Assembly: GCA_949959185.1 (NCBI GenBank)
Contig: CATLIX010000030.1
Location: 1-41,149, forward strand
Direction: 5' to 3'
DNA length: 41,149 bases
From: an uncultured Eubacterium sp.
GTDB taxonomy: Bacteria; Bacillota; Clostridia; Lachnospirales; Lachnospiraceae
A program made the position numbers and the translations under genes. Every line of letters starts with the position of its first letter. Within the stretch, counting starts at the first letter, position 1. The notes under the pieces are model-generated. The model saw only the letters and a list, made by a program, of their open reading frames with translations, was not told the DNA's origin and made no database searches. Shown here piece after piece: positions 9,294 to 41,149 of this stretch.

Positions 9294-9305
9294 AGGATAC
9301 TCTTT

Positions 9306-24469: not shown

Positions 24470-25032
24470 TCTTCTTCCTCCCTGCTGTTCTCAATCTCCA
24501 ATTTATCTGCAAGTTCCCCCTGCTTATTGGGATATAAATGTGAATAAGTATTTAATGTTGTTTCGATTTTCTCATGCCCTAACCGTTCCGCAATCGCTAA
24601 TGGCGTAAAACCCATTTCCACGAGCAACGAAGCGTGGGAATGACGAATATCATGCAAGCGTATTCTTTTCACTCCCGAAGCCTTGATACCTCTGATAATC
24701 TCATGCTCCATATAGGATTTTGTAAAACGGAACATTCTTTCGTCTGCCATAATTCCGTATAAGTGCGAAGTATACTCTTTTAATTCTTCTGTCAGAAACG
24801 GCGGTATCGTTATGATACGTTTGCTCTTTGGCGTTTTAGGCGGTGTGATAATATCCCTTCCCTCTATCCGCTGATAAGACTTGTTTACGGAAATGGTGCG
24901 CTTCTCTAAGTCAATATCATTGTAGGTAAGAGCAAGTAATTCTGCTTTTGTCAAGTAAAATCTAAAAAAAATATCATTCTCCGCTTTCAACGAAAAAGAC
25001 ACCACAGAACCAGCCCTATGATGTCTTTCCAT
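24466..25032 (-). pseudogene. Tyrosine integrase, N-terminally truncated
   Basis: Only the C-terminal catalytic half is left. It includes AELLALTYNDIDLEKRTIS, the RLHDIRHSHASLL box (His, Arg, His), the GHEKIETTLNTYSHLYP end with Gly-His and the nucleophilic Tyr, and a normal C-terminus. The arm-binding and core-binding domains are missing. The first catalytic Arg, expected just before xxELLAL, is also missing: the sequence there is YLTKAELLAL. The first ~30 codons from 25032 to about 24960 look like unrelated DNA. The enzyme should be inactive. The break abuts the serine recombinase module. Confidence 0.8.
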
Positions 25033-25050
25033 ATCATTTCCTACATTGCT

Positions 25051-26646: not shown

Positions 26647-28333
26647 TGTCTGCCGCCTCCCTTTCCTTTGTGTATGCCACCAGTTCATGCAGCATGTCAT
26701 CATATACCAGATGGACGGTCACTTTCCCTGCTGACAAAACTTCGATTTTGTCCACGAACGCATCCACCATCTTTTTTGTCAGGTGCCGGATATTCCTGTA
26801 TTTTTCAATGGCAGTTTCCCAGTTCCTGCTGGCACAGTAATTCCTGTCATACTTCTTCTGGTATTCTGTAACCTCATCTATTCTTTTACGGAGTTCTGAT
26901 TCCTTGACTGCCTCCTTATTTGCTAATGTTTCATACTGTTCCGCATCAATCAGACGCTCCGCATAATCTTCATATAACTGCTGTCTGCGTTCCGACACCT
27001 TTTCCATGTCATGGTGCAGTTTCTGGATCTCCCTAGTTAGCACGTCATACTTCTCCATACTTTCCGCTTTACGGTTCATTCTCTTTAACATTTCCATGCT
27101 GTCAACATACACATTCATATGGACACGGATAACACGGAGGACTTCATCATTAACGGCATTTTCAGAAACGCTTTTCCTGCTGCATCCCTTTTTTGTCAGG
27201 TGTCCCCCACATGCAAAATTGGCTGTCCCGTTTGAGCTTTTTACAAGGTACATGGTTGCCCCGCAGTCACCGCACACAATCTTCTTTTTATAGAAGTTCC
27301 GGCAGGCAAGCTCTCCCTTGTTTATCCTTCCATAATGCGTGGATTTTTCATGTACCTTCTTTAACCTTTCCTGTGCTTTGAGGTACAGCGCCCTCGGAAC
27401 TATCGCTTCATGGGTGTCCTCCACCATAATCCAGTTCTCTTTCGGCTCCTTCCACTGCTTTTTTTCTGCAAAACTGTCCCTGCCATGTTCATTATGCCTG
27501 CTGTCCCCTGCATAATAAGGGTTGCAGAGCATCCGTGAAATCGTCCCGCCGCTCCATTCAGGGTTGTAGTTTTTCGGCAGCTCCTTTGTCCTTTTGAAAT
27601 GCTTGTATGCTCTCGGTCCGATCACACCATCATCATTCAGGACTCTTGCAATCTGCGCATATCCCATTTCTTCATTTACGAACATTTCAAAAATACGCAC
27701 TACAACCGGGGCAGTTTCCGTATCTGCTATGATGCGGTGTTTGTCCAGCGGATCACTCATAAGCCCGTAAGCAAGGTTTCCGTTGACATTGCTGCCTTTT
27801 TTCCAGTTGGCACGGTAAGACGCCCTGATTTTTTTCGCCAGATCCCTTGAATAAAACTCATTGAAGATATTTGACATGCATACGGAGAGGTCTGCGCCTT
27901 CCCGGATGGAGTCATAACCATCCGTCACCGCAATGAACCGCACCTCAAAGAACGGGAATACCCTTTCCACATAATTGCCTGCCTCCACATAGTTCCTCCC
28001 AAGCCGGGACAGGTCTTTCACAATCACGCAGTTAATGCGTCCGTCCCTGATGTCCCGCATCATTTCCTCAAAGCCGCTTCTCTCAAAATTTGTCCCGGTC
28101 TGTGATACATCCATGTATTCACGTTCCACCACAATATCCTCTGCGCCTTCCACAAATTTTTTCAAAAGCCCCATCTGGTTCTCTATGGTTCCCCGTTCCC
28201 TGTTTGCCTCACTCTCAAGGGAAAGCCGTGCATACAACCCTGCTCTGAATATGGTCTTTTCTTCTTTTACAGCCACTGCCGATGTATCCCTGCCGACATT
28301 TACAAAATCAACTTTTCTCGATTTTCTTGCCAT
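26636..28333 (-). CDS. Large serine recombinase 2
   Basis: 565 residues. Nucleophile S38 in GLYARLSLES, active-site segment VIVKDLSRLGRNYVEAGNYVE, recombinase domain, zinc ribbon CGDCGATM...CGGHLTKKGC and a coiled-coil C-terminus. After the nucleophile it has ERGTIENQ where relatives have SNSI-NQ. The start at 28333 has GGGAGG about 8 nt upstream and lies one base after the stop of recombinase 3. It is clearly diverged from its two neighbours, so the three are old paralogs rather than a recent duplication. Confidence 0.93.
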   Translation of the reverse strand: MARKSRKVDFVNVGRDTSAVAVKEEKTIFRAGLYARLSLESEANRERGTIENQMGLLKKFVEGAEDIVVEREYMDVSQTGTNFERSGFEEMMRDIRDGRINCVIVKDLSRLGRNYVEAGNYVERVFPFFEVRFIAVTDGYDSIREGADLSVCMSNIFNEFYSRDLAKKIRASYRANWKKGSNVNGNLAYGLMSDPLDKHRIIADTETAPVVVRIFEMFVNEEMGYAQIARVLNDDGVIGPRAYKHFKRTKELPKNYNPEWSGGTISRMLCNPYYAGDSRHNEHGRDSFAEKKQWKEPKENWIMVEDTHEAIVPRALYLKAQERLKKVHEKSTHYGRINKGELACRNFYKKKIVCGDCGATMYLVKSSNGTANFACGGHLTKKGCSRKSVSENAVNDEVLRVIRVHMNVYVDSMEMLKRMNRKAESMEKYDVLTREIQKLHHDMEKVSERRQQLYEDYAERLIDAEQYETLANKEAVKESELRKRIDEVTEYQKKYDRNYCASRNWETAIEKYRNIRHLTKKMVDAFVDKIEVLSAGKVTVHLVYDDMLHELVAYTKEREAADNGQ

Positions 28334-28334
28334 C

Positions 28335-30038
28335 TTACACGACCTCCCTTTCCTTGACATTTACCCTTCCGTTTTCTTCCGTGCTTACCGTACAGCCTAC
28401 AGACTGTATCTGGCTGAGCGCCGACTGGAAACAGTCCTGAAAACAGAAATCTATCTCAATATGATTCTTGTCATACACTTTTACCCGCTCAATCAGCTCC
28501 ACCGCCGCAGTCCTGCTTAGTTCACTGATGTTCTGGTATTCCTTAAAATACCGGAGCCATTCATATTTATCCGTTTTGGCGTCAACCACATCCTGTATTG
28601 TGCGGCTGATTTTCCGTACCGCATCTTCCGCTTTTTTCCTCTTGTTGTTGTATCCTTCATACAGTTCTGCATAATCTTCTTTGGAAACAATGCCTTCTTT
28701 CAGATCTTCGTACAGCATGTCCCTCAGTTCCCTGCACCTTTGTATCTCCTGCTCTTTTGCTTCTTTCTGTCTTTCCAGTTCCTTTATTTCCAGCTCCTGA
28801 AACGGCACGGTATTGATGTATGCAAGGATTCTCCCCGCATCAAGCACACTGGCAATATGCGTCTTTAGCACATCAAACACCAGACGCTCCAGCTTGTCTT
28901 TTGGGATACGGTGTGTCCCGCACTGCTTCGTTGCAGCATTTTTTGAACAGATATAATAGGAATAAACCTTCCCGCCCGCCGGGACATTCCGCTTGATCAT
29001 CGGCGCACCGCAGTCCGCACACACGGCAAGCCCCGACAGCACATAGACTTCATCCTCATTTGGCGACGTCCTTGTGTCCATGCCGAGAAGCCTCTGGACA
29101 ATGGCAAATTCCCTCCTGCTGATGACAGGCTCATGATTGTCCTCAATCCTGACCCATTCTTCTTCCGGCTTATCCATAATCTTCTTAATCTTATGGTTTG
29201 GCGTGGAATGTTTTCCCTGCGTCAGTGTCCCGACATATACCTCGTTCTCAAGCACCCTGCGGACGGACATGGAACTCCACTCTGCCTGCTCATGTGTTTT
29301 AAAATTATCCTGGATACGGATGCCGAGGCTGTGTTTATACTCCATCGGTGACAATATCCCCTGTTCATTGAGGCAGTCCGCAATGGCTGTCTGGCTCATT
29401 CCGTGCAGCTTCATACGGAATATGTCCTTCACCACGCCTGCTGCATACAGGTCAGGAACCAGCCTGCTCCTGTCATTTTCATCTTTCTTATAACCATAGG
29501 GTGTAAATGCGCCTATGTACTCACCATTCCTGCGCTTTACTTCCAGATGGCTGCGTATCTTTATGGAAATATCCCGGCAGTATGCGTCATTCATCAGGTT
29601 TTTGAATGGAACGACAATATCATCCCTGCTGCTTTCCTCCTTGCTGTCAATATGGTCATTAACTGCAATGAACCGCACACCGAGAGCCGGGAACAGTCTT
29701 TCAATGTACTTCCCGGAATCAATATATTCCCTTCCGAAACGTGACAGGTCTTTTACGATCACACAGTCAACCGTTCCCCTTCTGATGTCATCCATCATCA
29801 TCTGGAACCCCGGACGCTCAAAATCGGAACCGCTGTAACCGTCATCCACACGTTCAGAAACCACTATAATATCATCTTTGTCTTTCAGGAAATCTTTAAT
29901 CAGATTTTTCTGGTTGGATATGCTGTTGCTCTCTGCCTTTGCTGCACTGGCAACATAACCATCTTCTTTTGAAAGCCTCACATAGATGGCTGCATGATAG
30001 ATTTTGTTTACTGTCAGACAGTCTGCTGTCTTATTCAT
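28335..30038 (-). CDS. Large serine recombinase 3
   Basis: 567 residues. Nucleophile S23 in AIYVRLSKED, SNSISNQ, active-site segment VIVKDLSRFGREYIDSGKYIE, recombinase domain, zinc ribbon CADCGAPM...CSKNAATKQC and a C-terminal coiled coil. The start at 30038 has AAGGAGG 8 nt upstream; the longer frame to 30089 has no ribosome binding site. First of the three recombinases in transcription order, after a 394-bp gap rich in palindromes. Confidence 0.93.
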   Translation of the reverse strand: MNKTADCLTVNKIYHAAIYVRLSKEDGYVASAAKAESNSISNQKNLIKDFLKDKDDIIVVSERVDDGYSGSDFERPGFQMMMDDIRRGTVDCVIVKDLSRFGREYIDSGKYIERLFPALGVRFIAVNDHIDSKEESSRDDIVVPFKNLMNDAYCRDISIKIRSHLEVKRRNGEYIGAFTPYGYKKDENDRSRLVPDLYAAGVVKDIFRMKLHGMSQTAIADCLNEQGILSPMEYKHSLGIRIQDNFKTHEQAEWSSMSVRRVLENEVYVGTLTQGKHSTPNHKIKKIMDKPEEEWVRIEDNHEPVISRREFAIVQRLLGMDTRTSPNEDEVYVLSGLAVCADCGAPMIKRNVPAGGKVYSYYICSKNAATKQCGTHRIPKDKLERLVFDVLKTHIASVLDAGRILAYINTVPFQELEIKELERQKEAKEQEIQRCRELRDMLYEDLKEGIVSKEDYAELYEGYNNKRKKAEDAVRKISRTIQDVVDAKTDKYEWLRYFKEYQNISELSRTAAVELIERVKVYDKNHIEIDFCFQDCFQSALSQIQSVGCTVSTEENGRVNVKEREVV

Positions 30039-30432
30039 AGCGTAGTCCTCCTTGTTTTCCGAAGGAAAATGCGGCTGCATTTCCTGCACGACGGCAGGAG
30101 CAGGGGCTTTTCCTCCTAAAATGTTAAGCAGGACAAACGCCAGTAAACTTTTATTAGATTTGATGCTGAAACAGATGTGCCTTTCTCACCGGACATCTGC
30201 TGTCTTTTCTCGAATCCTATATTAACATATCCTGCGGCATTTTTCCACTGCTTTTTTTATTTTTTCATGCGCCATCTTCCGGCTGTTACTGCTCACTGCG
30301 TTCCAGTAACAGGTAAAAATCCATGCAAAATCACCTTCTGTGATGGATTTTTACTTGAAAGTGGTACGTTTTCGCACGGAATTAGCAGTAAATGCTAATT
30401 CCTGTCTGCACAGTAACGTCCGTTTTTCTTTG
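30039..30432. repeat. Gene-free palindrome cluster before the recombinases
   Basis: Four perfect inverted repeats: CAGATGT/ACATCTG (30172-30199), CTGTTACTG/CAGTAACAG (30283-30312), GTAAAAATCCAT/ATGGATTTTTAC (30313-30354) and GGAATTAGCA/TGCTAATTCC (30378-30402). None has a typical terminator T tract on the minus strand. They could be recombinase binding sites, an operator array or a folded leader for the recombinase genes. No gene is seen in the stretch. Confidence 0.6.
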
Positions 30433-30681
30433 TCAAGCCATAAGGAGCAGGTTTTCAAAGGCATCCTCAAAACTTACTCCGTTATTTGCGAAACGTATTT
30501 TTACCATTGTGTTCCCGACCTTTACAAGATAGGGGTTCCCAACCTTCCTAAGATACTGCGCTTTCTTTTCCTCCACTGTCCTGTCCCTGTCAATCCTTAT
30601 CTTGCTGATGTCCTTTAATTCATCCAGTTTTACATCGTCAAAGTCCTGTTCCAAAAATTTTCTGTGTTCTTCTGCTGTCAT
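30433..30681 (-). CDS. Small transposon protein, 82 residues (DUF6870-like)
   Basis: Soluble acidic protein with a helical start (TAEEHRKFLEQDFDD) and a C-terminal strand-helix segment KVGNTMVKIRFANNGVSFED. This resembles small proteins from Firmicutes recombinase elements grouped as DUF6870; the assignment is from memory of the pattern. GGGAGG lies 7 nt before the ATG. Function unknown. Confidence 0.7.
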   Translation of the reverse strand: MTAEEHRKFLEQDFDDVKLDELKDISKIRIDRDRTVEEKKAQYLRKVGNPYLVKVGNTMVKIRFANNGVSFEDAFENLLLMA

Positions 30682-30775
30682 GCCATTACCTCCCAGTTAA
30701 AAAATGCTGCCGGATATTTCTGGCAGCTATGTATGCCGGACTGCTGATCCGGCTTGGAAAGGTGTTTTTGTCCTC

Positions 30776-31174
30776 TTACCACTTGCTTGCTTCAAGCCTC
30801 TTTTGGAAATTCCTGTATATCTCCTTATCCACCCACTCTGCATAATCCTTAGTGTCAATCAGTCCCTCTAAATCGTATATTCTGGAACGCATGGACTGCT
30901 CCACTCTTTCAGCGCTGTATTCCCCCAGTTCTGTCAGCTTCACAGTCAGCTTTTTCCTGATTTCTTCCTGCATGGTCTGCGGCATTGCTGCTATATAGTA
31001 AGGCGGCAGATATGACACACCGCTGTGCATGACTGCATCCTCATACTGATAGCTTTTTTCAAAGCTGAGAAGAAATTTCCGTATCTGGACTCTGGCTTTT
31101 CCCCGGTTCTCCTCACTGACTAATTCTGTCAGCCCGTCAAAGAACTGGACCAGTTCCGATTTTGTAAACCCCAT
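30776..31174 (-). CDS. Unknown protein, 132 residues
   Basis: A helical soluble protein beginning MGFTKSELVQFFDGLTELV, with a long charged middle and the end YRNFQKRLEASKW. AAAGGAG lies 8 nt before the ATG. It lies between the MazF-like gene and the 82-residue protein on the same strand. No family recognised. Confidence 0.65.
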   Translation of the reverse strand: MGFTKSELVQFFDGLTELVSEENRGKARVQIRKFLLSFEKSYQYEDAVMHSGVSYLPPYYIAAMPQTMQEEIRKKLTVKLTELGEYSAERVEQSMRSRIYDLEGLIDTKDYAEWVDKEIYRNFQKRLEASKW

Positions 31175-31328
31175 TTTTCCATACTCCTTTCGTACTGCAC
31201 ATACCCTTGTTCAGAATGACATACTCTGCCCTATAACGGACAAATATGTAAAAGCCGGACACCCGCCCGGCTCTAAAATAACCTTTCTTACAGTCTGACA
31301 CTGCTACCTGCCCTCAATCACTGCCATT

Positions 31329-31448
31329 TCAATAGATTCTCCCATATCTCCTGCGTCTCCCCTTCTTAAAAAACATCACTACTGAAACAACAAGCACGGA
31401 TAACACAAAAAATACGCCTGCTGTTGCAACTACTTTAATCCTGCCCAT
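31329..31448 (-). CDS. Possible small membrane peptide, 39 residues
   Basis: One hydrophobic segment (VVATAGVFFVLSVLVVSVVM) followed by the basic tail FKKGRRRRYGRIY, so an N-out/C-in single-pass peptide. The start at 31448 has AAGGTGG about 6 nt upstream; the longer frame to 31526 runs into the MazF-like gene. Single-span cationic peptides next to toxin-like genes can be toxins, but nothing here proves it. Confidence 0.4.
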   Translation of the reverse strand: MGRIKVVATAGVFFVLSVLVVSVVMFFKKGRRRRYGRIY

Positions 31449-31467
31449 ATTTTCCACCTTTTCCTTA

Positions 31468-31833
31468 TTAGTTGTACCTGTCAAACACACCCACCTGCAC
31501 CTGTACGCCCTCCGTGATCCTGTCAAGCGTTTCTACGTCAACTTTTCCCATGTGTTCTATGATACGGTCAAAGTTCAGCGCCGTCACCTGTTCGCATAAT
31601 GCGATGCTGTGCTGGTCAAGTCCCTCCGTCTTATATGATGATATGAATACATGGGTTGGCAGGCTCCGCTTCTTGTAAATCTTTGTTGACAGCGGAACTA
31701 CCGTAATGACGGTGCTGTGCTTGTTTGCCCTGTTGTTACTGACTACTACCACCGGGCGCATACCGCCCTGCATACTTCCCTGATACTGTACGCCCAAGTC
31801 CGCATACAGTATATCGCCTCTCCTTATCTTCAT
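31468..31833 (-). CDS. MazF/PemK-family endoribonuclease-like protein
   Basis: 121 residues. It starts KIRRGDILYADLG and continues with GGMRPVVVVSNN, NKHSTVITVVPLS and THVFI, the beta-strands and active-site loops of the MazF/PemK fold (the arginine in GGMRPVVV and the threonine in STVITVVPLST). No MazE-like antitoxin is adjacent. The ATG overlaps the stop of the dead resolvase-like gene (TGATG), so translation is coupled. In this module it may be a solitary toxin, an element-maintenance factor or a regulator. Confidence 0.85.
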   Translation of the reverse strand: MKIRRGDILYADLGVQYQGSMQGGMRPVVVVSNNRANKHSTVITVVPLSTKIYKKRSLPTHVFISSYKTEGLDQHSIALCEQVTALNFDRIIEHMGKVDVETLDRITEGVQVQVGVFDRYN

Positions 31834-32261
31834 CAGCAGCCTTTTCCCCCACCCCATATCGGTCTTTCCTTATCAGCAGGACACGTTGTTGTGTCATATA
31901 TATGGTACTGCATGGTGGAAAGCTCAAAGAAGCCGACGCCGATATTGGCGGCATCGTGCATAAATTCTTCCAGATTGGACTCGTCCGCTGTTATGTCAGC
32001 CATGTTCTCCACAACAACCGTATCATACTGCCCGGTAATCAACCGGGTAATCAGCATATTTACCGCATCACGGTCAATATCCCTGTTCGGTCCCTTGTTG
32101 ACAATTGTTTCATTCATTAACGCTATTCCTGCCATGCTGCACTTCTGTCGGTTCTCCTGAATGATCCTGCGAAGATTGCTTTCTGACTTGTTGGAGTTCA
32201 TAAACATGACTGCCGGATGCACAAGCAAGCCGACCTCAAAACTTTTCACATTACTGCACAT
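31833..32261 (-). CDS. Resolvase-like protein lacking catalytic residues
   Basis: 142 residues. The segment RDAVNMLITRLITGQYDTVVVENMADIT then EEFMHDAANIGVGFFEL follows the strand-helix pattern of serine recombinase catalytic domains (compare EEMMRDIRDGRINCVIVKDL then YVERVFPFFEVRFIAV in recombinase 2). The YxRxS nucleophile site is replaced by GLLVHPAVM, and the SRxxR arginines are replaced by ADITAD. There is no DNA-binding domain. The start at 32261 has AGGTG 6-7 nt upstream. It could form mixed dimers with the active recombinases. First gene of the module's transcript. Confidence 0.65.
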   Translation of the reverse strand: MCSNVKSFEVGLLVHPAVMFMNSNKSESNLRRIIQENRQKCSMAGIALMNETIVNKGPNRDIDRDAVNMLITRLITGQYDTVVVENMADITADESNLEEFMHDAANIGVGFFELSTMQYHIYDTTTCPADKERPIWGGGKGC

Positions 32262-32324
32262 GATAATCACCTATACTTTCTTCTATTTTCGTTGACTGAA
32301 ACAAAAGAGAAGTTTTTGCCGGCA

Positions 32325-32397
32325 TTATCCTCTCATACAGGAAAGCCTTGTCTGCTGTTATCTGATAACTGCAAGGCTTGCCTGTATCAGAGGATAA
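32325..32397. repeat. Long imperfect inverted repeat, 26-bp arms
   Basis: The left arm 32325-32350 and right arm 32372-32397 match in 24 of 26 positions. The 21-bp centre itself contains the palindrome GTTATCTGATAAC. GTGGCG-TTTC-CGCCAC (32400-32415) and TCTGA-AAATA-TCAGA (about 32437-32451) follow. It lies 65 nt upstream of the dead resolvase-like gene, so it is in that gene's promoter/leader region or at the module end. Confidence 0.7.
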
Positions 32398-32451
32398 CGT
32401 GGCGTTTCCGCCACATTACCCCTCTGTTCAATCTGAAAATATCAGATATTG

Positions 32452-32904
32452 CTCTCGCTGGTCCCCGAACCGGGTAACATACACTGGGACGGCTTATATC
32501 CCACGCTGCGCCTCCATCATGCCCAACCAGACGGAATCCACAGGCAGCCACTCCCGGAAAATGCTTTTCGCTGAAATTCCGACGCTGTTTTATCCCATTA
32601 TCTCTGACTGCCATGCCAGTAGGCACAATCCTCTGCTCTTAAAAACTTATGTTTTTTACCTTCACGGGCAACAATGTTATCCATTGCAGGTACATCTTCG
32701 CACGAAATGGGATTCTGCCACCCCTTTATCCCTACATAAGCATGAACGGATAAAAGGGCGAAAATAAAATCAGGTGTATGCGTGTCCTATTAAATTGTTT
32801 TGGCTTTCTCAAGCCTGCAACTATCATAACTGAAAGGGGAAGTTTTTCAGAGTGCCAGATTGCACTATTTATAGATGATATATGCCACCTTTTAGCACAT
32901 AAAA
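32452..32904. other. Gene-free stretch between recombinase module and secreted-protein units
   Basis: No convincing gene. A hairpin CCCTTTATCC/GGATAAAAGGG lies near 32721-32758. Short frames on both strands lack ribosome binding sites or protein-like composition. It probably holds decayed element-end DNA. Confidence 0.5.
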
Positions 32905-32943
32905 AAATCAGCCTCCGAACCGTTATAGATCAAAGACTGATTT
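32905..32943 (-). terminator. Terminator of the 33551/32992 transcription unit
   Basis: AAATCAG (32905-32911) pairs with CTGATTT (32937-32943). On the minus strand the stem ends in a run of seven or more T. It lies 49 nt beyond the stop of the 166-residue secreted protein. Confidence 0.65.
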
Positions 32944-32991
32944 CATTTAATGTTATCCAAACAAATGTGTTTATGGGGAATATTTATTCTA

Positions 32992-33492
32992 TTATTCTAA
33001 AATATAAGTTACTGTAATTTTAGGTCTTGAATATTTTGTACCCCCAATATATGCAGAACCAAGACTCGGAGACGCAATATTAGTCCCTGTCATGTATACA
33101 TACCATGTTCCGGCTGCTTTTTCAGCGATGAATAAATTGGTAGTAGTTACATTACCTCTGCCCCAACCAACTGTATGTGTTTCCCCGCTTGGACTGGTAA
33201 TTGTAATGTTCTGTGGCAATATTGCGCCTTTTCCACCGATTACAGATGCATTAGAGCAATCAATTTTAACTTCTTTTACAATCGCATTATCTGGCAGGCT
33301 GTTAAGGTTAAAAGTAATCGTATTAGAATCTCCTGTAACTCCCGGCATCAATGCAATCGACATATCTTTATTTGCTGTTTTTGTAACCGAGTCTGTGCCT
33401 GCTGCAAACGCTGTTACCTGTGAAGCAAACAACATTGTGAATACCAGAGCAACCGCTAGTATTTTTTTTACTTTTTTCATTGATTTTAACAT
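32992..33492 (-). CDS. Secreted beta-sandwich protein, 166 residues
   Basis: Sec signal peptide (LKSMKKVKKILAVALVFTML...TAFAAG, cleavage about residue 31). The mature part is a single beta-rich domain, with ITITSPSGETHTVGW, FIAEKAAGTWYVYMTGT and a closing strand RPKITVTYI. The order strand-SPSG-AGTW recalls proprotein convertase P-domains. It shares this pattern with the C-terminal domain of the 393-residue secreted protein at 35772-36953. The start at 33492 has AGGAGG about 9 nt upstream. It is co-transcribed with the 195-residue protein from the promoter at 34168-34238. No cell-wall anchor. Confidence 0.75.
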   Translation of the reverse strand: MLKSMKKVKKILAVALVFTMLFASQVTAFAAGTDSVTKTANKDMSIALMPGVTGDSNTITFNLNSLPDNAIVKEVKIDCSNASVIGGKGAILPQNITITSPSGETHTVGWGRGNVTTTNLFIAEKAAGTWYVYMTGTNIASPSLGSAYIGGTKYSRPKITVTYILE

Positions 33493-33550
33493 AATAGTAT
33501 TCCTCCTGTTTGTCAAATTCCCCTTATATGCATTTGTTGAATTACATGCT

Positions 33551-34138
33551 TTATGCTTTCATATCGAAATTATTTTGCACCACAACACTTTCATTTGTAA
33601 TCTCCACATTTGTTCCAGTGTTCAGCGCCTTTCTTGCATCGTGATACGCCTCATAATATGCTGATTTTAACGCTGAATGTACTCCTGTTTCTGCTTTTGT
33701 TTCTTTCTCATGCCACCCTACTCCTTGAGTGTATGTAAGAACTTCTTCCCCTCCCTCATTATATATATGAATCGCAGAACCTGTCCCCTCCCCTTGATAT
33801 TCAGCCTCATATGGTATTCCAAATAGAATGCAAAGCCACCTTTTATCTGCTTCTTCTATTTTTTTCATATCCCCCATATTTCCAGAGTTCATTGACTGAT
33901 TGAACTTACCTATCAGTGCTGCCCGATTTGGTGCCACTTTAGCAACCTCTGCTTTCCGCAAACTCATGAACTCATTCCCCATATATACACTGTTTTTCGC
34001 ATCTTTCTTAGCCAATTCAACAATTTTTTCTTTCAATGAATCTGTTAATTGCCACTTGTTCTTTTCAGAAGTTTTTTTAACACTACTGCCATAACTTCCA
34101 GACACCTTTAACGCATTGATAGTATTCGATATATCCAT
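33551..34138 (-). CDS. Unknown cytosolic-type protein, 195 residues
   Basis: No signal peptide and no recognised domain. The N-terminus is DISNTINALKVSGSYGSSVKKT. The middle has NSVYMGNEFMSLRKAEVAKVAP, and the C-terminal half has HIYNEGGEEVLTYTQGVGWHEKETKAE, then a helix and the end NNFDMKA. The start at 34138 was preferred because GAGGTG lies 6 nt upstream; GTG/ATG codons just before it would have none. First gene of the promoter-B unit, ~22 nt after the predicted transcript start. Confidence 0.65.
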   Translation of the reverse strand: MDISNTINALKVSGSYGSSVKKTSEKNKWQLTDSLKEKIVELAKKDAKNSVYMGNEFMSLRKAEVAKVAPNRAALIGKFNQSMNSGNMGDMKKIEEADKRWLCILFGIPYEAEYQGEGTGSAIHIYNEGGEEVLTYTQGVGWHEKETKAETGVHSALKSAYYEAYHDARKALNTGTNVEITNESVVVQNNFDMKA

Positions 34139-34167
34139 CTCCATCACCTCACTTTAAATTTGTCCTT

Positions 34168-34238
34168 AATATATACAATTGGGCAAAGGTTATCAATATC
34201 CTTTGCAGAAAATGAACTATTTGAGCAGAAAACGGACA
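34168..34238 (-). promoter_or_regulatory. Promoter B with tandem activator-type boxes
   Basis: Minus strand: -35 TTGATA (34191-34196), 17-bp spacer, -10 TATATT (34168-34173). Eight nt upstream of the -35 is a direct repeat with 20-bp period. On the plus strand the boxes read GCAGAAAATGAAC (34205-34217) and GCAGAAAACGGACA (34225-34238), i.e. TGTCCGTTTTCTGC-type on the minus strand. The architecture is the same as in promoter A (37169-37237). Such tandem boxes fit a dimeric activator, for example a LytTR response regulator, but none is in the window. Confidence 0.7.
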
Positions 34239-34240
34239 TA

Positions 34241-35683
34241 TCAAATTACGGGCATCAATTTCTCATAATATGATGAATTATTATTTGAAGCTATATTATT
34301 TGCTCTCTTAACAATGCTCATGCTCGAATTAGAGATGTTATATTCAACTTTAAAATTCGATATGCCATGCATTCCATACATTTTCTCGTAATCTTTAAGG
34401 CGATATATTTTATCCCGCAAATCCTCATATCTCGCATTACTCTCTTGCGAATTTAATAATTCGCACATTTTAGCTGGGAGTCCACTAATTTTACCATTTT
34501 CATCAATTCTAATATCATTCCATGTATATTTTCCATTTGTCGAGTTTTCAAGAAATTGGTTTAAATCCCTATAATCATTGATATAGTTAAATTCGCTTGC
34601 TGTCATATCTGAAGCCTGCATATAATAATCCCATAACGTATCAGACAAATCATCACCTATTGTGTCAAAAATCATCTTTTTCGTTTCTTCTGGAATCTCC
34701 CCTGTAATCATGAGTTTTCCTGAAATGTCTAACTCAATTCCCCATTCTTTTCTGCCCACATCTATTTCATTTTCTTCAATCTGCTCCATAATTTGGGGAT
34801 ATAAAACATTATATATTTTTCCTGAAGCTTCTGCTTTTTCATAATCTGTTAAGTTTGCAAAAATTTTAAGATACTTGATTTCATCATTGCAGAGTTTTTC
34901 GCCAGAAGCCATTTTTCTTAATAATTCCTCTACCGTTTCAGTTCCCATATACTTTTCATCATCTGGTAATGAATCATATTGTTCTTTGTGCAGTTTTTCT
35001 AACTCTTCTAAATATTGTTTTTCATACTGTCCCTTTACCTTCTCTCTCTCTTGTTGGTTATTTGCACCAAACATACCCTCTGCATGTTGTACACTGTTAC
35101 TATTTGTAGTGCTCTTATTTTCACTTATTTTTATTCTATATGACTCATTACTCTTTACATCAGCTCCAGCTTCATTTTCAACTCGAATAATATACCTGTC
35201 TGTAACACTATCCCAATCAGGTAAAACCACTTCTTTTGAACCCATACCATCAGTCTTTGCAGTACCTATCTGATTTCCATACATATCATATACAATTAAA
35301 TTGTAATTACATCCTTCGGGTATATTTTCTAATCGTATTGTTATTTGAGAAGAAATCCCCATCCTAGAATAAAATCCTTTCTGTTGATATGAAAAAGAAT
35401 AGTAATCTACATCTCCATTATGACTCAATGTACCTTCCAAATAACTATCTTTATTTCCAATAAGTGTATTCAAATCATAACTGCTATGATACTGATCCAC
35501 CTTATCATCATATTTCGTATGTTGACGGTAGCTGTCATTATTATTTTCTTTTGTCTTTTCTATCAAAACAGTTTCTTCATTTAATTCCTTCATCGGTGAC
35601 GCAAAAGATTTTCCTGTATTCCCTACATAATAGCGCCTTCCATCTAATAATCCTCCACTAACCAAGTGCGAATATCTTTGCAT
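34241..35683 (-). CDS. Unknown protein with PPC-like beta domain, 480 residues
   Basis: No signal peptide. Residues about 75-195 form a PPC-like beta-sandwich: LEGTLSHNGDVDYYSFSY, a strand with ITIRLENIPEGCNYNLIVYD, then DRYIIRVENEAG and ESYRIKIS, a pattern normally found in secreted proteases. Residues 205-250 are a charged coiled coil. The remainder is helical, ending in the low-complexity tail SNNNSSYYEKLMPVI. AGGAGG lies 9 nt before the ATG, just beyond the hairpin 35702-35738. It is downstream of the secreted 393-residue protein. Export by an unusual route, or a cytosolic role, cannot be told apart. Confidence 0.7.
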   Translation of the reverse strand: MQRYSHLVSGGLLDGRRYYVGNTGKSFASPMKELNEETVLIEKTKENNNDSYRQHTKYDDKVDQYHSSYDLNTLIGNKDSYLEGTLSHNGDVDYYSFSYQQKGFYSRMGISSQITIRLENIPEGCNYNLIVYDMYGNQIGTAKTDGMGSKEVVLPDWDSVTDRYIIRVENEAGADVKSNESYRIKISENKSTTNSNSVQHAEGMFGANNQQEREKVKGQYEKQYLEELEKLHKEQYDSLPDDEKYMGTETVEELLRKMASGEKLCNDEIKYLKIFANLTDYEKAEASGKIYNVLYPQIMEQIEENEIDVGRKEWGIELDISGKLMITGEIPEETKKMIFDTIGDDLSDTLWDYYMQASDMTASEFNYINDYRDLNQFLENSTNGKYTWNDIRIDENGKISGLPAKMCELLNSQESNARYEDLRDKIYRLKDYEKMYGMHGISNFKVEYNISNSSMSIVKRANNIASNNNSSYYEKLMPVI

Positions 35684-35701
35684 TGAATTTTCCTCCTAAA
35701 A

Positions 35702-35738
35702 ACGGAAGGCATTAAAAAAATCTTTTAATGCCTTCCGT
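35702..35738 (-). terminator. Intercistronic terminator/attenuator
   Basis: ACGGAAGGCATTAAAA (35702-35717) pairs perfectly with TTTTAATGCCTTCCGT (35723-35738) around five bases. On the minus strand it is followed by TTTTT and, within a few bases, the AGGAGG of the 480-residue gene. It should cut transcription after the secreted 393-residue gene and let a fraction through, or protect the 3' end of the upstream message. Confidence 0.75.
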
Positions 35739-35771
35739 GGCTATTTTTATACTTTTATAAATTCATTACAT

Positions 35772-36953
35772 CTATCCTACAATTATTCCAAAAGGCACTA
35801 AATAGTCAAGTGTCATCTGTGTCATTGTTGTGCAACGAGCATTAATGTATGAAATATTGTCTACCCAATGTACAGTTACTTTTGTTGCATAACTTCCATC
35901 GATTGAACCAGATGGCGGTGTTGTGTCAACCAAATCACTCCACCAACCGCCAGTCTGGGTTAAATGTATTGAATACCCTGCTGTGGCAGGAGTGTAGTAA
36001 TAATCAATGCTGGATGCATATGTATGATTTGCAAATGGCTTGGACTTATCAATAAATTTCACTCCGGTCAATGCATACTCCGTTGCAGTTCCACTCGGAC
36101 AAGTTATGGTTAAAGTCTGAGTTGTTACTGTTTGGCTCATTGAACGATTGTCCCATTTAATAGCAGCGTAATGTGTTGGATCAGAAAATGATGTAGTTTG
36201 TGCTATTGGTAATGGCTGTCCAGAATAGAATCCATAATGACAACCACTGGTTGTTGTATCATCTGCTGCTTTAAAAACAAAATAATAATTTCCAGTTGTC
36301 ATTCCCAAACATATGACTTTATTTGAATTGCCTGCTATTGTTTTCTTAGTTGAATAGTAACTGGTAAAATAACTGGTGACACCTGCCTCATCCGTAGATC
36401 TATATATTAAATTCAAGTCATTATCAAAAATAAACACATGTGAATTTGACTCTAACATGAATGTAACATAATTACTCCCTTCGGAAGATACCACATTCTG
36501 ATAAAAATGACCTTGATCAGCGGCATATGCGGAATCATTCAAGTATCCCTCTCTTAATGCGGTATTGTAATCTGCTGGTCCTTTAGGGTTCAGCAAAAAA
36601 CCACCCATTGCAAAACCTTCTGAGTTTTTAGGATATGTATTGTATATCTCCCTGTTACTTGACCATTTTTGCCATGAAAAGTCGTAAGCATATGTATTAC
36701 GGCTCCACATATACTTATTTGCTGCTCTTCTTGTTTCAGCCAACGCACTTACATCCTCGTCTCCAGTACTCTCGGTAAACTCATACTGTATTTCATCATC
36801 CATGAGATCCGAACTCAAATTTTGCAAATTGCCCCCTTCTGCTTCAAGATTCAGTTGACTGATCCTGCCTACATCTGCAGCATTGGCAGTTACTACTTGA
36901 CCGCATAGCAGCGTCACTGTTAATAAAGTTCCTAACCATCTTCTTACCTTCAT
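35772..36953 (-). CDS. Secreted protein with C-terminal P-domain-like fold, 393 residues
   Basis: Signal peptide at 1-25 (RRWLGTLLTVTLLCGQVV, cleavage after ANA). An acidic, possibly pro-region follows to about residue 70 (VSALAETRR could be a processing site). Then comes an aromatic-rich domain, YMWSRNTYAYDFSWQKWSSN, with strands such as YVTFMLESNSHVFIFDNDLN. Residues about 270-390 form a second beta domain, LTITCPSGTATEYALT, then PATAGYSIHLTQTGGWWSD and TKVTVHWVD, parallel to the 166-residue secreted protein. AGGAGG precedes the ATG. Expressed from promoter A. No enzymatic motif recognised. Confidence 0.7.
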   Translation of the reverse strand: MKVRRWLGTLLTVTLLCGQVVTANAADVGRISQLNLEAEGGNLQNLSSDLMDDEIQYEFTESTGDEDVSALAETRRAANKYMWSRNTYAYDFSWQKWSSNREIYNTYPKNSEGFAMGGFLLNPKGPADYNTALREGYLNDSAYAADQGHFYQNVVSSEGSNYVTFMLESNSHVFIFDNDLNLIYRSTDEAGVTSYFTSYYSTKKTIAGNSNKVICLGMTTGNYYFVFKAADDTTTSGCHYGFYSGQPLPIAQTTSFSDPTHYAAIKWDNRSMSQTVTTQTLTITCPSGTATEYALTGVKFIDKSKPFANHTYASSIDYYYTPATAGYSIHLTQTGGWWSDLVDTTPPSGSIDGSYATKVTVHWVDNISYINARCTTMTQMTLDYLVPFGIIVG

Positions 36954-37168
36954 TTTTTACCTCCTGATAAAAATAATATATTTATGGATATAATACTTTA
37001 TTTAATATGATTGTATAACTCCTATTAAATCGCGTAGAATTTTAAGAAAAACATACCAGGCATCTCACTAAACTTCACATAAACTGTATATGTAATAATT
37101 TAAATTGATGTACTATTTACTACAACGATAAACGCTATTCACACAACCACATACATATCCACACAATA

Positions 37169-37237
37169 AGTATATCAAGTCCAAAATCAAAATCAACCAC
37201 CCTAGCAGAAAGTGGACATAAATTGCAGAAAATGACA
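37169..37237 (-). promoter_or_regulatory. Promoter A with tandem activator-type boxes
   Basis: Minus strand: -35 TTGATT (37191-37196), 16-bp spacer, -10 TATACT (37169-37174). The -35 is preceded by a 20-bp-period direct repeat whose plus-strand boxes read GCAGAAAGTGGACA (37205-37218) and GCAGAAAATGACA (37225-37237), again 8 nt from the -35. It drives the 393-residue secreted gene with a ~208-nt leader. That leader fills the rest of 36954-37260, where I see no gene. Confidence 0.7.
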
Positions 37238-37260
37238 TATATCCTTCTTGTAAATATACA

Positions 37261-37296
37261 AAAGAGGATATTGCATCTTTGTACAATACCCTCTTT
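37261..37296 (-). terminator. Terminator of the peptide-maturation operon
   Basis: AAAGAGGATATTG (37261-37273) pairs with CAATACCCTCTTT (37284-37296) with one mismatch. On the minus strand it is followed by TTTTGTATATTT. It lies 19 nt after the stop of the last operon gene. Confidence 0.7.
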
Positions 37297-37314
37297 ATTC
37301 GTAAATAACCTGAA

Positions 37315-37956
37315 TTACTTATATATAATCTGGTTATTATATGCTTTTTCCGCATCACTCTTTCTTAAAGCCTCTCTCATATCCTCCTCTTTTTGAAGCT
37401 TTTTATCCAAAATCTCCTGTGATATACGCTTTGCTGCCTGCCGTTTTTCCAAATATTCTTCGAGCAGCTCTTTTTGCTTATCCTTCTTACTTTCACTTGT
37501 CTTTTTATAAAAGCTATCCTGAGAACGTGCATAAAATTCTGAATCATAACCAACAGGCCATGAGTCTCCCCGATAGTCCTTTAAAGAACTTCCTACTGTA
37601 AACACAGCAGAACAGTTTCTGGGAGCTAATGAACTCCCTAAATCTCTTTTGAGCAAATTCAAGATTTGCTGTTTATATTGCGGATCTTCTTTCATTTTCT
37701 TAAATGCATCTTCCGATATATTAATTGCTACATTACTGATTGTTTGGTGAACATTTATTTTGGAAAGTTCCTCATAAAATTCTTTTTTAAAAACTTCCAA
37801 TTCTTCTTCTGGCGTTAGCTGTTCTGTTTTCTCAGTTCCGTTTATCTGCTTTGAAGTAAGTTCCTGTGAAAAAACCTTTTCCTCACTTTGTTTGCTCCTT
37901 GTGTTTGCTACCATGCTACTTTCTCGCAAGTAATTATTTTGTACCATCAATGACAT
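37315..37956 (-). CDS. Unknown protein of the peptide operon, 213 residues
   Basis: No signal peptide. The N-terminal ~45 residues are polar and probably disordered. A compact segment follows, ELEVFKKEFYEELSKINV to ISEDAFKKMKEDPQYKQQ, then a strand region with FTVGSSLKDYRGDSWPVGYD. The rest is a long charged coiled coil (about 135-205). The middle resembles uncharacterised Lachnospiraceae proteins (DUF6033-like), from memory and unverified. It begins 1 nt after the acyl-carrier-like stop with AGGAG inside that gene, so it is tightly coupled to the peptide operon and may belong to its maturation or target set. Confidence 0.65.
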   Translation of the reverse strand: MSLMVQNNYLRESSMVANTRSKQSEEKVFSQELTSKQINGTEKTEQLTPEEELEVFKKEFYEELSKINVHQTISNVAINISEDAFKKMKEDPQYKQQILNLLKRDLGSSLAPRNCSAVFTVGSSLKDYRGDSWPVGYDSEFYARSQDSFYKKTSESKKDKQKELLEEYLEKRQAAKRISQEILDKKLQKEEDMREALRKSDAEKAYNNQIIYK

Positions 37957-37957
37957 A

Positions 37958-38221
37958 TTACAGTTCTCCTTTCTCTGAGATAATTATTTCTACAATATCA
38001 TTAAAAGTGTTAAATTTCCGTTCCGCTATCGCTATTTCAGGAACTTTTATTCCAAATTTATCCTCCACTGCTTCCAAAAATGATATCATTTGATAAGGTT
38101 CAACTCCAAATTTTCCAGATAATAAAGGAAAATTTTTAGCTTCATCTGGTAATGCATTTATATCTATCTTTAATGTCTCTTTTACAACTTCTGACAATCC
38201 ATTACGCACCTGCTCTTCCAT
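37958..38221 (-). CDS. Acyl-carrier-related protein without carrier serine (TIGR04069-like)
   Basis: 87 residues with the four-helix ACP layout (EDKFGIKVPEIAIAERKFNTFNDIV matching the EEEFGI..PD...... region). The phosphopantetheine site DSL is replaced by FGVEPYQMI, so no serine is available for the prosthetic group. This matches the acyl-carrier-related proteins described with CLI_3235-type peptide systems, which probably act as protein-interaction adaptors rather than carriers. GGAGGG lies about 6 nt before the ATG, overlapping the stop of the preceding gene. Confidence 0.8.
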   Translation of the reverse strand: MEEQVRNGLSEVVKETLKIDINALPDEAKNFPLLSGKFGVEPYQMISFLEAVEDKFGIKVPEIAIAERKFNTFNDIVEIIISEKGEL

Positions 38222-38235
38222 TGTTTACCCTCCAA

Positions 38236-39336
38236 TCAAAGCAATTCCATTTCGACATTTTCATTCAAGCATTCAATAATGTACTGCCCCATAGATTCAA
38301 CACTTGTTTCCGTAAAAATTTTTTCCAGCCCATTGGTATCTGCTGCTAACTTTGTTCTCAAATTTTCTATATCAGCTTGTTTTCGGGAAAAATATTCTAT
38401 TGGTATGGAACGATTTACTGTAAAAACGTCTTGTGCAGTGTCACTCAAATAGAAGCAATCTATATCTGACATATACTTATATTTCACAATCTGCTTCATT
38501 TCACTCACATACTTATCAGAAACATTGTTCCCATATAGACACATAACCAAAAAATCTGGATTAACGGCATTTAAAATTTCAAATGCATGAACCCCAAAAT
38601 GACCAACTTGAAATTTGCTTATTGGCATAATACCTTCCGGCACGCCCAAAATAATTACTTCTGGTCTTTCTTCCTGCTCAATCTTCTTAATAAAATGATT
38701 ATACAAAATAATCTTTTGTTCCGAAGGAATATTAGAATCCATAAAATCAGGAAAAGAATATGTATTATTCAAAAACACACTATTATTTCTTGAAGATATC
38801 AAAATAGCATGATATCCATTTTTTTCCAAGTATCTTTTTATAGCTAATTGTACCCCAAATTTACCTGTTTGCTCGCCAACACCTGCAACACATATTATTG
38901 GCGTATATATATCATGTAAAGCTAACGGACTAATATCTATATCGGAGATTTCATTTGCTTTCATTACATCTATCATATTTCCAGAATATTTTTTTACCAG
39001 TCGCAAAATTTTACTGTATACTGGTTCCTGAACTACTCTAGCAAATAATACTTTCTTACCATGTTTAAGAATATCCTCAAGAATTTCACATATCTGATCA
39101 TCCTGTATTTTATTTGCCGAACCTGTTATCCATACCGCATCTATTTTTTGATAATCATCCTCCGATAAAGTGGTTTGCACAGTATATCCGCATATGTTCT
39201 CTCTTTCTACTGCCCATCCATTGGGAGACAATAAAATCTGAATATTAATGTTTTTTAACATAGAACTATGTTGCAGATAGGGATACATTTCATTATCATA
39301 AGGAAATACTGCTACATTTATAAAATCATTATTCAA
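38236..39336 (-). CDS. Peptide maturation system protein, TIGR04066-like
   Basis: 366 residues from a TTG start at 39336, which has AGGAGG ~8 nt upstream. The N-terminal domain (VAVFPYDNEMYPYLQHSSML, VDAVWITGSA) is Rossmann-like. The C-terminal domain begins with a P-loop-like GVGEQTGKFG at 152-161, then ILISSRNNSVFL and VIILGVPEGIMP, as in DUF1611/dethiobiotin-synthetase-type NTPases. This combination beside CcpM and an ACP-like protein is the TIGR04066 setting. Its biochemical role in peptide maturation is not established; ATP or GTP use is inferred from the loop. Confidence 0.82.
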   Translation of the reverse strand: MNNDFINVAVFPYDNEMYPYLQHSSMLKNINIQILLSPNGWAVERENICGYTVQTTLSEDDYQKIDAVWITGSANKIQDDQICEILEDILKHGKKVLFARVVQEPVYSKILRLVKKYSGNMIDVMKANEISDIDISPLALHDIYTPIICVAGVGEQTGKFGVQLAIKRYLEKNGYHAILISSRNNSVFLNNTYSFPDFMDSNIPSEQKIILYNHFIKKIEQEERPEVIILGVPEGIMPISKFQVGHFGVHAFEILNAVNPDFLVMCLYGNNVSDKYVSEMKQIVKYKYMSDIDCFYLSDTAQDVFTVNRSIPIEYFSRKQADIENLRTKLAADTNGLEKIFTETSVESMGQYIIECLNENVEMELL

Positions 39337-39353
39337 TTTTTTCGCCTCCTAAC

Positions 39354-40772
39354 TTAATCAAAATGATACCCATGTTCTCTTAATACACAATATTCCTTCA
39401 ACTGTATTTCACATGTCTGTTTAACTTTTTCACAACGTTCCATTCGTTTCTCAGCCGATAAATCATCCCCATCTTCCATTCCTGCCGCACAAAGATTGCA
39501 AAAATCTCCTGCCCAACAAGTTTTGCATTTATTAGGCGTTAGTTGTGCGATATTTAGCAATTTGGAAACTTTTTCTATATTAAACCCCGTATCCAAATTA
39601 CCTAACACAAAAGCATTGCAACTTTCATTAACACGTTCACAAGGATAAAAATTCTCATCAACATTTACAAACAACCTTGTCGCTCCTGCAATACAAGCCC
39701 CAGACGGATGATATGCACTGCCACGTTTTCCTTTCGCAATAACTTTTTTATGAATATTCTCTTTCATTACTGCAACCTGAGCTTCCATGAACTTTGATAC
39801 ATATTTTTTATCCAATCTTCCTATCAAATACAAATATGCCTTAAACAACTCATATCTGTAATTTGTGTCAAAAAGTTCTGAATAGCGGATTTCATTTTTG
39901 GCACTGTTCTGATTTAATGTTGTAGCGCCAACGATTGCTGAAGTAATAAAATCATAAGTAAAAAAGTTGCTGCTGCATTGAAAATCATTTTGCTCATCAA
40001 GTACCGCATTAAAACTTATATTTTCCATATAAGCCGGGTATTTTTCTTTGATACGGTCAAGTTTGCTCATGACCACTTCAAAGGTACCCTTTCCGCTTTC
40101 AGCAAACACCCGGCTATTGTCTTGAACATTTTGTGGTCCATCCAAACTAATTGTTAAACTTACATCATTTGCATATAAAAAATCTACTATCTCATCAGTA
40201 AGCAACGTTGCATTCGTAGTCAAATTATATTTGACTTTTTTTCCTCGAAATACTTTATTAGCATAGTCGATAATCTCTCGGATTAATTTCATTTCTAATA
40301 AAGGCTCTCCACCATAAAAACTGATCAATCCATTCTCTAAGTTACCATTATGTTTATGATAAAAATCCACAGCTTTCTTTGCAGTTTCGATTGACATTCT
40401 TTTTTTGGTATGCACTCTATTTACATACGAACCTGAATACACACAATATTTACATCTTAAATTACAATTTTGAGTTACCTGCAAAATAAGCTGATGAACA
40501 TTATTTTTCATGTAATCATCTATTTGATCTGCTGCCGCATGTTTTATTTCTACATTTGTATTACAGCCTTTTAAAAATCCCTGTTCTTTTAACTTCTCTA
40601 TTTTTTTCATGGATACACTATCCATTTGTGTATATGTGACTTCTCTTGAAACTATTTTCTCAAGATTTTTATATAAATTTTCATCAATACGAATAATGGA
40701 AGTTGTATTTACATCAAACACATAATGCGATTCTACTGTTTCAAATAATTTTATAAATGGTATATCATTCAC
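39354..40772 (-). CDS. ccpM: Cys-rich peptide radical SAM/SPASM maturase CcpM
   Basis: 472 residues from a GTG start at 40772. AAGGAGG lies about 8 nt before it, whereas the ATG at 40793 abuts the upstream hairpin and contains the ribosome binding site. An N-terminal peptide-recognition-like domain (to about 85) precedes the radical SAM core, with cluster cysteines C103, C107 and C110 (NCNLRCKYC). YGGEPLLE is the GGE-type SAM motif. The C-terminal SPASM domain has FYPCERVNES and CKTCWAGDFCNLC for two auxiliary 4Fe-4S clusters. It should install thioether-type cross-links on the adjacent five-Cys peptide, giving a ranthipeptide/sactipeptide-like product. Confidence 0.92.
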   Translation of the reverse strand: MNDIPFIKLFETVESHYVFDVNTTSIIRIDENLYKNLEKIVSREVTYTQMDSVSMKKIEKLKEQGFLKGCNTNVEIKHAAADQIDDYMKNNVHQLILQVTQNCNLRCKYCVYSGSYVNRVHTKKRMSIETAKKAVDFYHKHNGNLENGLISFYGGEPLLEMKLIREIIDYANKVFRGKKVKYNLTTNATLLTDEIVDFLYANDVSLTISLDGPQNVQDNSRVFAESGKGTFEVVMSKLDRIKEKYPAYMENISFNAVLDEQNDFQCSSNFFTYDFITSAIVGATTLNQNSAKNEIRYSELFDTNYRYELFKAYLYLIGRLDKKYVSKFMEAQVAVMKENIHKKVIAKGKRGSAYHPSGACIAGATRLFVNVDENFYPCERVNESCNAFVLGNLDTGFNIEKVSKLLNIAQLTPNKCKTCWAGDFCNLCAAGMEDGDDLSAEKRMERCEKVKQTCEIQLKEYCVLREHGYHFD

Positions 40773-40793
40773 CCTTTTTGCCTCCTTGTACAT

Positions 40794-40837
40794 AGGTACA
40801 GAAAGATATTAAACACAAACAATATCTTTCTGTACCT
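40794..40837 (-). promoter_or_regulatory. 17-bp perfect hairpin between precursor and maturase genes
   Basis: AGGTACAGAAAGATATT (40794-40810) pairs exactly with 40821-40837 around a 10-nt loop. It has no T tract after it on the minus strand and ends ~5 nt before the ribosome binding site of ccpM. It probably stabilises the precursor mRNA end or weakly attenuates, giving more precursor than enzyme. Confidence 0.65.
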
Positions 40838-40870
40838 AGTTGTAGCATCTGATCTGTCTGAAAGACACCC

Positions 40871-41062
40871 TTAGAATGCCCATCTTCCTGAAATTGCAGT
40901 GGTCAAACCTTTGGAATAATTCTGCAAATTAACAGTAGAAAAAGCGGATGTATCAGTGCAGTTGTAACACGGAATAGAAGCGCACTGTGAATCGCAGCTA
41001 CAAGAGAATGCTACTAATGTTCCATCCTGAACCTTAGCTTTCTTTCCTAATGCTTTTTTCAT
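40871..41062 (-). CDS. Five-cysteine RiPP precursor, CLI_3235 family
   Basis: 63 residues. The leader-like start MKKALGKKAKVQDGTLVAF is the conserved beginning of CLI_3235-type precursors (K-LGKK...T-x-AY/F-x-C). The cysteines are C21, C23, C27, C32 and C35 in the core SCSCDSQCASIPCYNC. A polar C-terminal stretch follows, ending GRWAF. GAGGAGG lies about 8 nt before the ATG. It directly precedes ccpM. No double-glycine cleavage site is obvious. No transporter or protease is in the window; they may lie beyond the right edge. The product could be an antimicrobial or a signal. Confidence 0.88.
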   Translation of the reverse strand: MKKALGKKAKVQDGTLVAFSCSCDSQCASIPCYNCTDTSAFSTVNLQNYSKGLTTAISGRWAF

Positions 41063-41078
41063 CGTAATTCCTCCTCGT

Positions 41079-41118
41079 ATAATAAGTCTATAGCCAGTCA
41101 GAATAGGCTATAGACTTA
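41079..41118 (-). promoter_or_regulatory. 15-bp perfect hairpin in the precursor leader
   Basis: AATAAGTCTATAGCC (41079-41093) pairs exactly with GGCTATAGACTTATT (41104-41118). On the plus strand it is followed by CTTTTTTG, so it would terminate rightward transcripts. On the minus strand it lies in the precursor leader, immediately before GAGGAGG, like the hairpin before ccpM. Nothing else is seen to the window end. Confidence 0.65.
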
Positions 41119-41149
41119 TTCTTTTTTGATATAGATGCAGGATGATTTC

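Follow-up and report, generated by a model that had tools for sequence, protein, structure and literature searches.

Tandem-box promoters beside a CLI_3235-class RiPP cluster as probable operators of an agr-type LytTR regulator

Genes and promoter sites in the window

The window analyzed here, 41,149 nucleotides long, is a whole contig (C30, ending at position 41149) of an assembly of 114 contigs. It carries a CLI_3235-class RiPP cluster on the minus strand, in which the precursor peptide (40871-41062; CLI_3235 family TIGR04065, 33.6 bits, cut-off 26), the CcpM radical-SAM maturase (39354-40793; TIGR04068, 550.6 bits, cut-off 500) and a peptide maturation protein (38236-39336; TIGR04066, 242.7 bits, cut-off 200) all exceed the cut-offs of their families. 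The cluster also encodes an acyl-carrier-like protein (37958-38221), whose best match, TIGR04069, does not reach its cut-off (58.1 bits, cut-off 70), and a conserved protein with no assigned family (37315-37956). Perfect inverted repeats with 10-nt loops lie just upstream of the precursor gene (41081-41120, arms of 15 bp) and between this gene and CcpM (40793-40838, arms of 18 bp), and could tune the expression of precursor and maturase. Just 87 bp of contig remain upstream of the precursor gene, which places its promoter outside the window.

Downstream of the cluster, and separated from it by a terminator-like stem (37261-37296), we found two promoter sites and four genes, all on the minus strand. 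The presumed target of the site nearer to the cluster (site 2) is a protein with DUF6947 and CBM-like domains (35772-36953), whose presumed start codon lies about 200 nt from the site. A 480-aa protein (34241-35683) possibly belongs to the same unit; a stem-loop lies between the two genes. The presumed target of the other site (site 1) is a protein of 195 aa counted from the ATG at 34138 (33551-34138; the frame is open from 34147), and the next gene (32992-33516) encodes a protein whose start resembles that of a secreted protein, the signal peptide being judged by eye. The ties between box sites and downstream genes are conserved in relatives. In genome G056, homologues of both genes that follow site 2 stand behind one box pair with their order swapped, and in locus L104 the homologue of the first site 1 gene also stands behind a box pair.

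Two promoters share a tandem-box architecture

An earlier note on this DNA had claimed that two promoters share a tandem-box layout, with a 20-bp period, 8 nt from the end of box 2 to a TTGATW -35 element, and a spacer of 16-17 bp before a TATAYT -10 element. We found exact matches to this layout at 34168-34238 and 37169-37238, both on the minus strand. The box is 14 bp long, of the type TGTCC-N-TTTTCTGC, and occurs twice per promoter at a period of exactly 20 bp. Read on the minus strand, the boxes of site 1 are TGTCCGTTTTCTGC-TCAAAT-AGTTCATTTTCTGC (34238-34205; box 1 at 34225-34238, box 2 at 34205-34218) and those of site 2 are ATGTCATTTTCTGC-AATTTA-TGTCCACTTTCTGC (37238-37205; box 1 at 37225-37238, box 2 at 37205-37218). 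The gap of 8 nt is the same in both, and is followed in site 1 by TTGATA (34191-34196), a 17-nt spacer and TATATT (34168-34173), and in site 2 by TTGATT (37191-37196), a 16-nt spacer and TATACT (37169-37174). As the note had also stated, the spacing is shared while the surrounding sequence is unrelated, the flanks of the two sites being unlike. Both promoters thus have the form of LytTR-regulated promoters, in which a pair of direct repeats spaced by about 20-22 bp lies directly before the -35 element.

The -35 and -10 hexamers alone are not significant, since 39 promoter-like sites, both promoters included, occur in 32900-41149 compared with 38.7 in shuffled sequences; the signal therefore resides in the boxes. 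By arithmetic, the box pair is centred at about -60 relative to the predicted transcript start. A class II activator in the strict sense is positioned at about -41. The proposal of one activator in the class II position thus holds in part: a single activator is supported by the relatives described below, whereas the strict class II position does not fit a box pair centred near -60.

The box pair is rare in the genome

We scanned the 3.4-Mb genome for the core pair TTTCTGC-N13-TTTCTGC and found it at three places, two in the window and one on contig C57, with no match for the reversed-pattern control. The pairs are thus more than a chance occurrence, and three sites in the assembly are in keeping with the small regulon that had been proposed. 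Two additional pairs with N12 turned up in the same scan. When a TTG was required 8 nt after the core pair and up to 2 mismatches were allowed, eight matches were obtained in this genome (three perfect and five with 2 mismatches) against one for the control. Pairs with a 21-bp period (TTTCTGC-N14-TTTCTGC) gave two matches and two control matches, and were dismissed as noise because the counts are equal.

The box pair co-occurs with one LytTR subfamily

We searched the strict box pattern and a regulator alignment in the same 145 genomes, our own included. The alignment (A2) comprised four AgrA-like LytTR regulators from four pattern-positive genomes (G024, G022, G004 and G038), and a line at 330 bits was drawn after the search. 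The strict pattern occurs in 11 of the 145 genomes, at 20 places, and the reversed-pattern control gave no match. Twenty genomes have an A2 match at E <= 1e-45, ten of them above 330 bits. A regulator of this subfamily above 330 bits is present in 9 of the 11 pattern-positive genomes versus 1 of the other 134. The two pattern-positive genomes without such a regulator are our own and G020, neither of which has an A2-subfamily member at E <= 1e-45. The pattern-negative genome with a regulator above the line, G027, has a near site adjoining its regulator. The regulator frame contains one in-frame TGA in G004 (L053, 7981-8658) and in G027 (L085, about 8906-9625), and the regulator may therefore be inactive in these two genomes.

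Since the genomes behind A2 carry sites themselves and the 330-bit line postdates the first search, we repeated the test in a second set of 397 genomes of the bacterial family, with a cut-off of 1e-75 fixed before the search; 64 of these genomes are shared with the first set and 333 are new. The best 19 candidates per genome were scored in the first set and the best 7 in the second, so that absences of the regulator are uncertain and its presence counts are lower bounds. Across the 397 genomes the pattern was found in 17, the regulator in 18 and both in 13. Among the 333 new genomes, 13 have the pattern and 15 the regulator: 11 have both, 2 the pattern only, 4 the regulator only and 316 neither. 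The Fisher value for this table is 9e-16 and another in the analysis is 9e-12, both optimistic, and the counts are inflated, owing to kinship and near-identical pairs (G023/G024 and G422/G472). In 10 of the 11 new genomes with both, a site and the regulator share a contig and are at most 10 kb apart. In one genome, G253, the strict pattern match is unlinked to its regulators, one of which is flanked by sites with a 21-bp period. A LytTR response regulator had been suspected from the box periodicity, and this suspicion gains support from the co-occurrence of the box pair with one LytTR subfamily and from its fixed places in the regulator locus.

Sites occupy fixed positions in regulator loci

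To describe these places we took 33 loci from the 40 distinct regulator matches of both searches, several of them cut by contig ends. The main match of G056, near which sites were known, and lower-scoring matches in G035, G006, G026, G067, G073 and G074 were left out. A relaxed site is present in 21 of the 33 loci, with none for a reversed-core control, and the other 12 have no relaxed site. Ten loci have a site 130-234 bp upstream of the regulator, in sixteen a site lies 2.04-2.15 kb downstream of the regulator start, and two sites lie at +827 and +960. In L045 and L051 the site at +2.1 kb falls between the kinase and AgrB.

Spacing is similarly constrained, as counted over loci some of which were placed to include known sites. 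We counted TTTCTGC pairs on the same strand, up to 60 bp apart, over 26 regulator loci (465,136 bases): 31 have a spacing of 20 bp, 7 one of 21 bp and 6 another spacing. Sites with the 21-bp period form a minority in the relatives and occupy the same places as the others. Of 84 unique sites, 62 have a TTG that starts 8 nt downstream of box 2; among the 54 not preselected for TTGA the number is 34. A TA[TA]NNT hexamer starts 30 nt after box 2 in 45 of the 84 and 31 nt after it in 15. A weight matrix based on 19 unique sites yields, in simulated sequence, no more than about 1 background match per Mb at scores of 11-16. Applied to 609,754 bases of loci, it gives several dozen matches, many above 40, a list that is descriptive and not proof, since sites or regulator had guided the choice of these loci.

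Sites stand next to agr and RiPP genes in relatives

In G022 (L045) the gene order is LytTR regulator, kinase, site, AgrB, AgrD, site, with AgrB and AgrD assigned by family models. The RiPP genes join this arrangement on one contig of an uncultured Clostridiaceae (L109, CAMWUK010000013.1). The list there starts with regulator, kinase, box site, a homologue of the conserved protein at 37315-37956, precursor and a CcpM homologue 58% identical to that of the window, and continues with homologues of the TIGR04066 and acyl-carrier-like proteins, AgrB, AgrD, a subtilase, an ABC exporter and a second box site. Family models identified the regulator (LytTR and receiver domains), the kinase (GHKL), AgrB, AgrD, the CLI_3235 precursor, the subtilase and the exporter; the others were identified by BLAST. 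In both L109 and L045, then, agrB, agrD, a kinase and a LytTR regulator adjoin the sites, as expected of an agr regulon.

Across the relatives, the genes that stand behind box pairs include that of the regulator itself, agrB, those for RiPP precursors and exporters, and other cargo. The distance from the beginning of the box site to the precursor start is 131-134 bp in L104 and about 130 bp in L050, which is apparently from Petralouisia muris. Homology between our precursor and that of L104 begins only at the ribosome-binding site. L104 is not independent of G025 (L056), because their subtilase and exporter are identical at 100% of the protein sequence. RiPP genes are present in L108 with no site at a PWM score >=14, and the distant relatives L110 and L111 are without sites.

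A second agr-like kind, with kinase and AgrB-type genes, was seen in L046 (1235-3892) and L050 (14712-16666), AgrB being confirmed by Pfam in L050 only. It includes a LytTR regulator in L046, while L050 shows just a short frame with the last residues of the regulator.

A candidate agr circuit and its alternatives

Given the co-occurrence with the regulator and the linkage to it, both observed directly in other genomes, we consider it very probable that the box pairs serve as operator-promoters for the AgrA-like LytTR response regulator of an agr quorum-sensing system. In the window they adjoin a CLI_3235-class radical-SAM peptide (RiPP) cluster. In the proposed circuit, AgrB would process and export a peptide derived from AgrD, and a GHKL (AgrC-like) kinase would sense this peptide and phosphorylate the regulator. 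The regulator would then bind both boxes, immediately before the -35 element, and recruit RNA polymerase. Site 2 would drive 35772-36953, with 34241-35683 as a possible second gene, and site 1 would drive 33551-34138, with 32992-33516 as a possible second gene. If the arrangement is as in L104 and Petralouisia muris, the promoter of our own RiPP precursor would lie just past the contig end. This suggests that crowding switches on genes around the predicted bacteriocin cluster. By comparison with known systems and relatives, we infer binding, activation, the identity of the signal and the limits of the operons. The candidate operator and its regulon would be new but of the known LytTR/agr kind, and are linked to a RiPP class that has received little study, a reading that the sequence comparisons support well. 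Points against it are the site-bearing G020 without such a regulator, the new genomes with the pattern only or the regulator only, the 12 regulator loci and the L108 RiPP locus without a site, and the roughly 200 nt that separate site 2 from its presumed start codon.

For our own organism we infer the circuit, including the presence of its regulator, from the relatives, since the contig ends at 41149 and the assembly has no close regulator and no AgrB match in its 114 contigs. Relatives of the exporter in this assembly are at most 36% identical, the best-scoring one 26%. A gap at the contig end explains these absences most simply, because the L104 subtilase and exporter sit just upstream of the precursor, where the window contig breaks. 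A truncated or regulator-free mobile locus is a less simple alternative. It is improbable in our view that the sites are relics, with mobile cargo that came without its regulator and promoters that are now silent or constitutive. Such relics would agree with the missing regulator, AgrB and exporter and with the recombinase module that adjoins the cluster, but the boxes, gap and -35/-10 elements are intact at all three sites of this genome, and a contig break exactly where the exporter sits in L104 makes a gap the simpler explanation.

The sites might instead answer to another of the 15 LytTR-domain proteins matched in this genome, after loss or replacement of the original cognate, as the lack of a close A2-subfamily member would allow. 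We regard this as quite unlikely, because these proteins are distant (at most 32% identical to the four A2 regulators), none of their 15 loci has a box pair within the approximately 1.5 kb covered on each side of the domain, a range short of the +2.1-kb place, and none of the three sites in the genome is beside a LytTR gene. As for chance similarity of AT-rich promoter regions, the hexamers alone do occur at chance level, but three sites in 3.4 Mb with no control match, the reversed-pattern controls in the other genomes and the cross-genome association with the regulator leave it a negligible probability, and we rejected it in practice. Operators of an agr-type LytTR regulator remain our preferred reading of the box pairs.

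Comparison with known systems

The VirR boxes of Clostridium perfringens have a consensus sequence other than that of the window boxes, and the VirR regulon has other targets. The layout is alike, with an imperfect direct-repeat pair spanning 34 positions immediately upstream of the -35 element, and the consulted parts of the report indicate that spacing and helical phase matter (PMC2838878). In the HdrR/BrsR LytTR systems of Streptococcus mutans, according to the corresponding parts of their description, direct repeats also lie 8 bp upstream of the -35 element, the targets are bacteriocins and there is positive autoregulation; these systems differ in that their 9-bp repeats are separated by 12 bp (period 21) and that a membrane inhibitor protein stands in place of kinase and peptide (PMC6193735). 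For Clostridium acetobutylicum, the relevant sections describe agr quorum sensing (agrBD/agrCA) that controls a RiPP-type, lanthipeptide-synthetase-like gene adjoining agrCA, but the target is not a radical-SAM RiPP and these sections describe no box pair (PMC10301443).

Clusters of the CLI_3235 class with TIGR04068, TIGR04066 and TIGR04069 proteins and an ABC transporter are described, in the portions of the reports drawn on, for Roseburia intestinalis L1-82, together with a subtilase (PMC4573289), and for Paenibacillus polymyxa #23, whose SacP23 is a CLI_3235-family precursor reported to be active against MRSA (PMC10731318). These portions name no agr or LytTR regulator for either cluster (PMC4573289, PMC10731318). 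Among the literature matches listed, titles and abstract openings describe no control of CLI_3235-class clusters. The circuit proposed here would give this class a testable regulator, operator and signal system.

A recombinase module adjoins varied cargo

Three large serine recombinases in a row and a phage-integrase-type gene, assigned by Pfam, adjoin the cluster (24466-30089). The module also contains a PemK/MazF-like toxin gene (within 24466-32891). Parts of this region are shared with the relatives' loci at the DNA level: 30524-32891 matches L104, L105 and L050 at 84-85% identity, 31468-32892 matches L047 at 91%, and 27907-30008 matches L104, L105 and L047 at 68%. Different cargo abuts the shared stretch in L104, L105, L050 and L047, and box promoters lie within this cargo or ahead of it. 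Because a shared recombinase stretch is thus abutted by different cargo carrying box promoters, we tentatively raise the possibility of a horizontally transferable, plug-in regulon, in which a mobile recombinase module would gather varied cargo, each with the same agr operator-promoter and not necessarily with the regulator. If this were true, new cargo would connect straight to an existing agr system of that kind in the host. With an operator motif as sharp as this one, candidate quorum-controlled genes in the bacterial family can be picked out by sequence alone, cargo far from agr among them.

The third site of our genome (L018, 264-309, on contig C57) is near an MgtE gene and reads off the contig start. 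We considered whether it might be the promoter of the RiPP precursor of the window, which is unsupported, as the start of C57 has no convincing overlap with the window end. The 259 bp around this site share 95% identity with G020, and in both G014 and G020 the site is followed by an RNA-polymerase-alpha-CTD-like gene (the family model was run for G020). Small PF03118 proteins (RNA-polymerase alpha C-terminal domain) adjoin box sites or agr genes in L018 (508-1128), L045 (12021-12806) and L055 (172-927), and genes related to them make up one cluster of 10 members among the loci that were compared.
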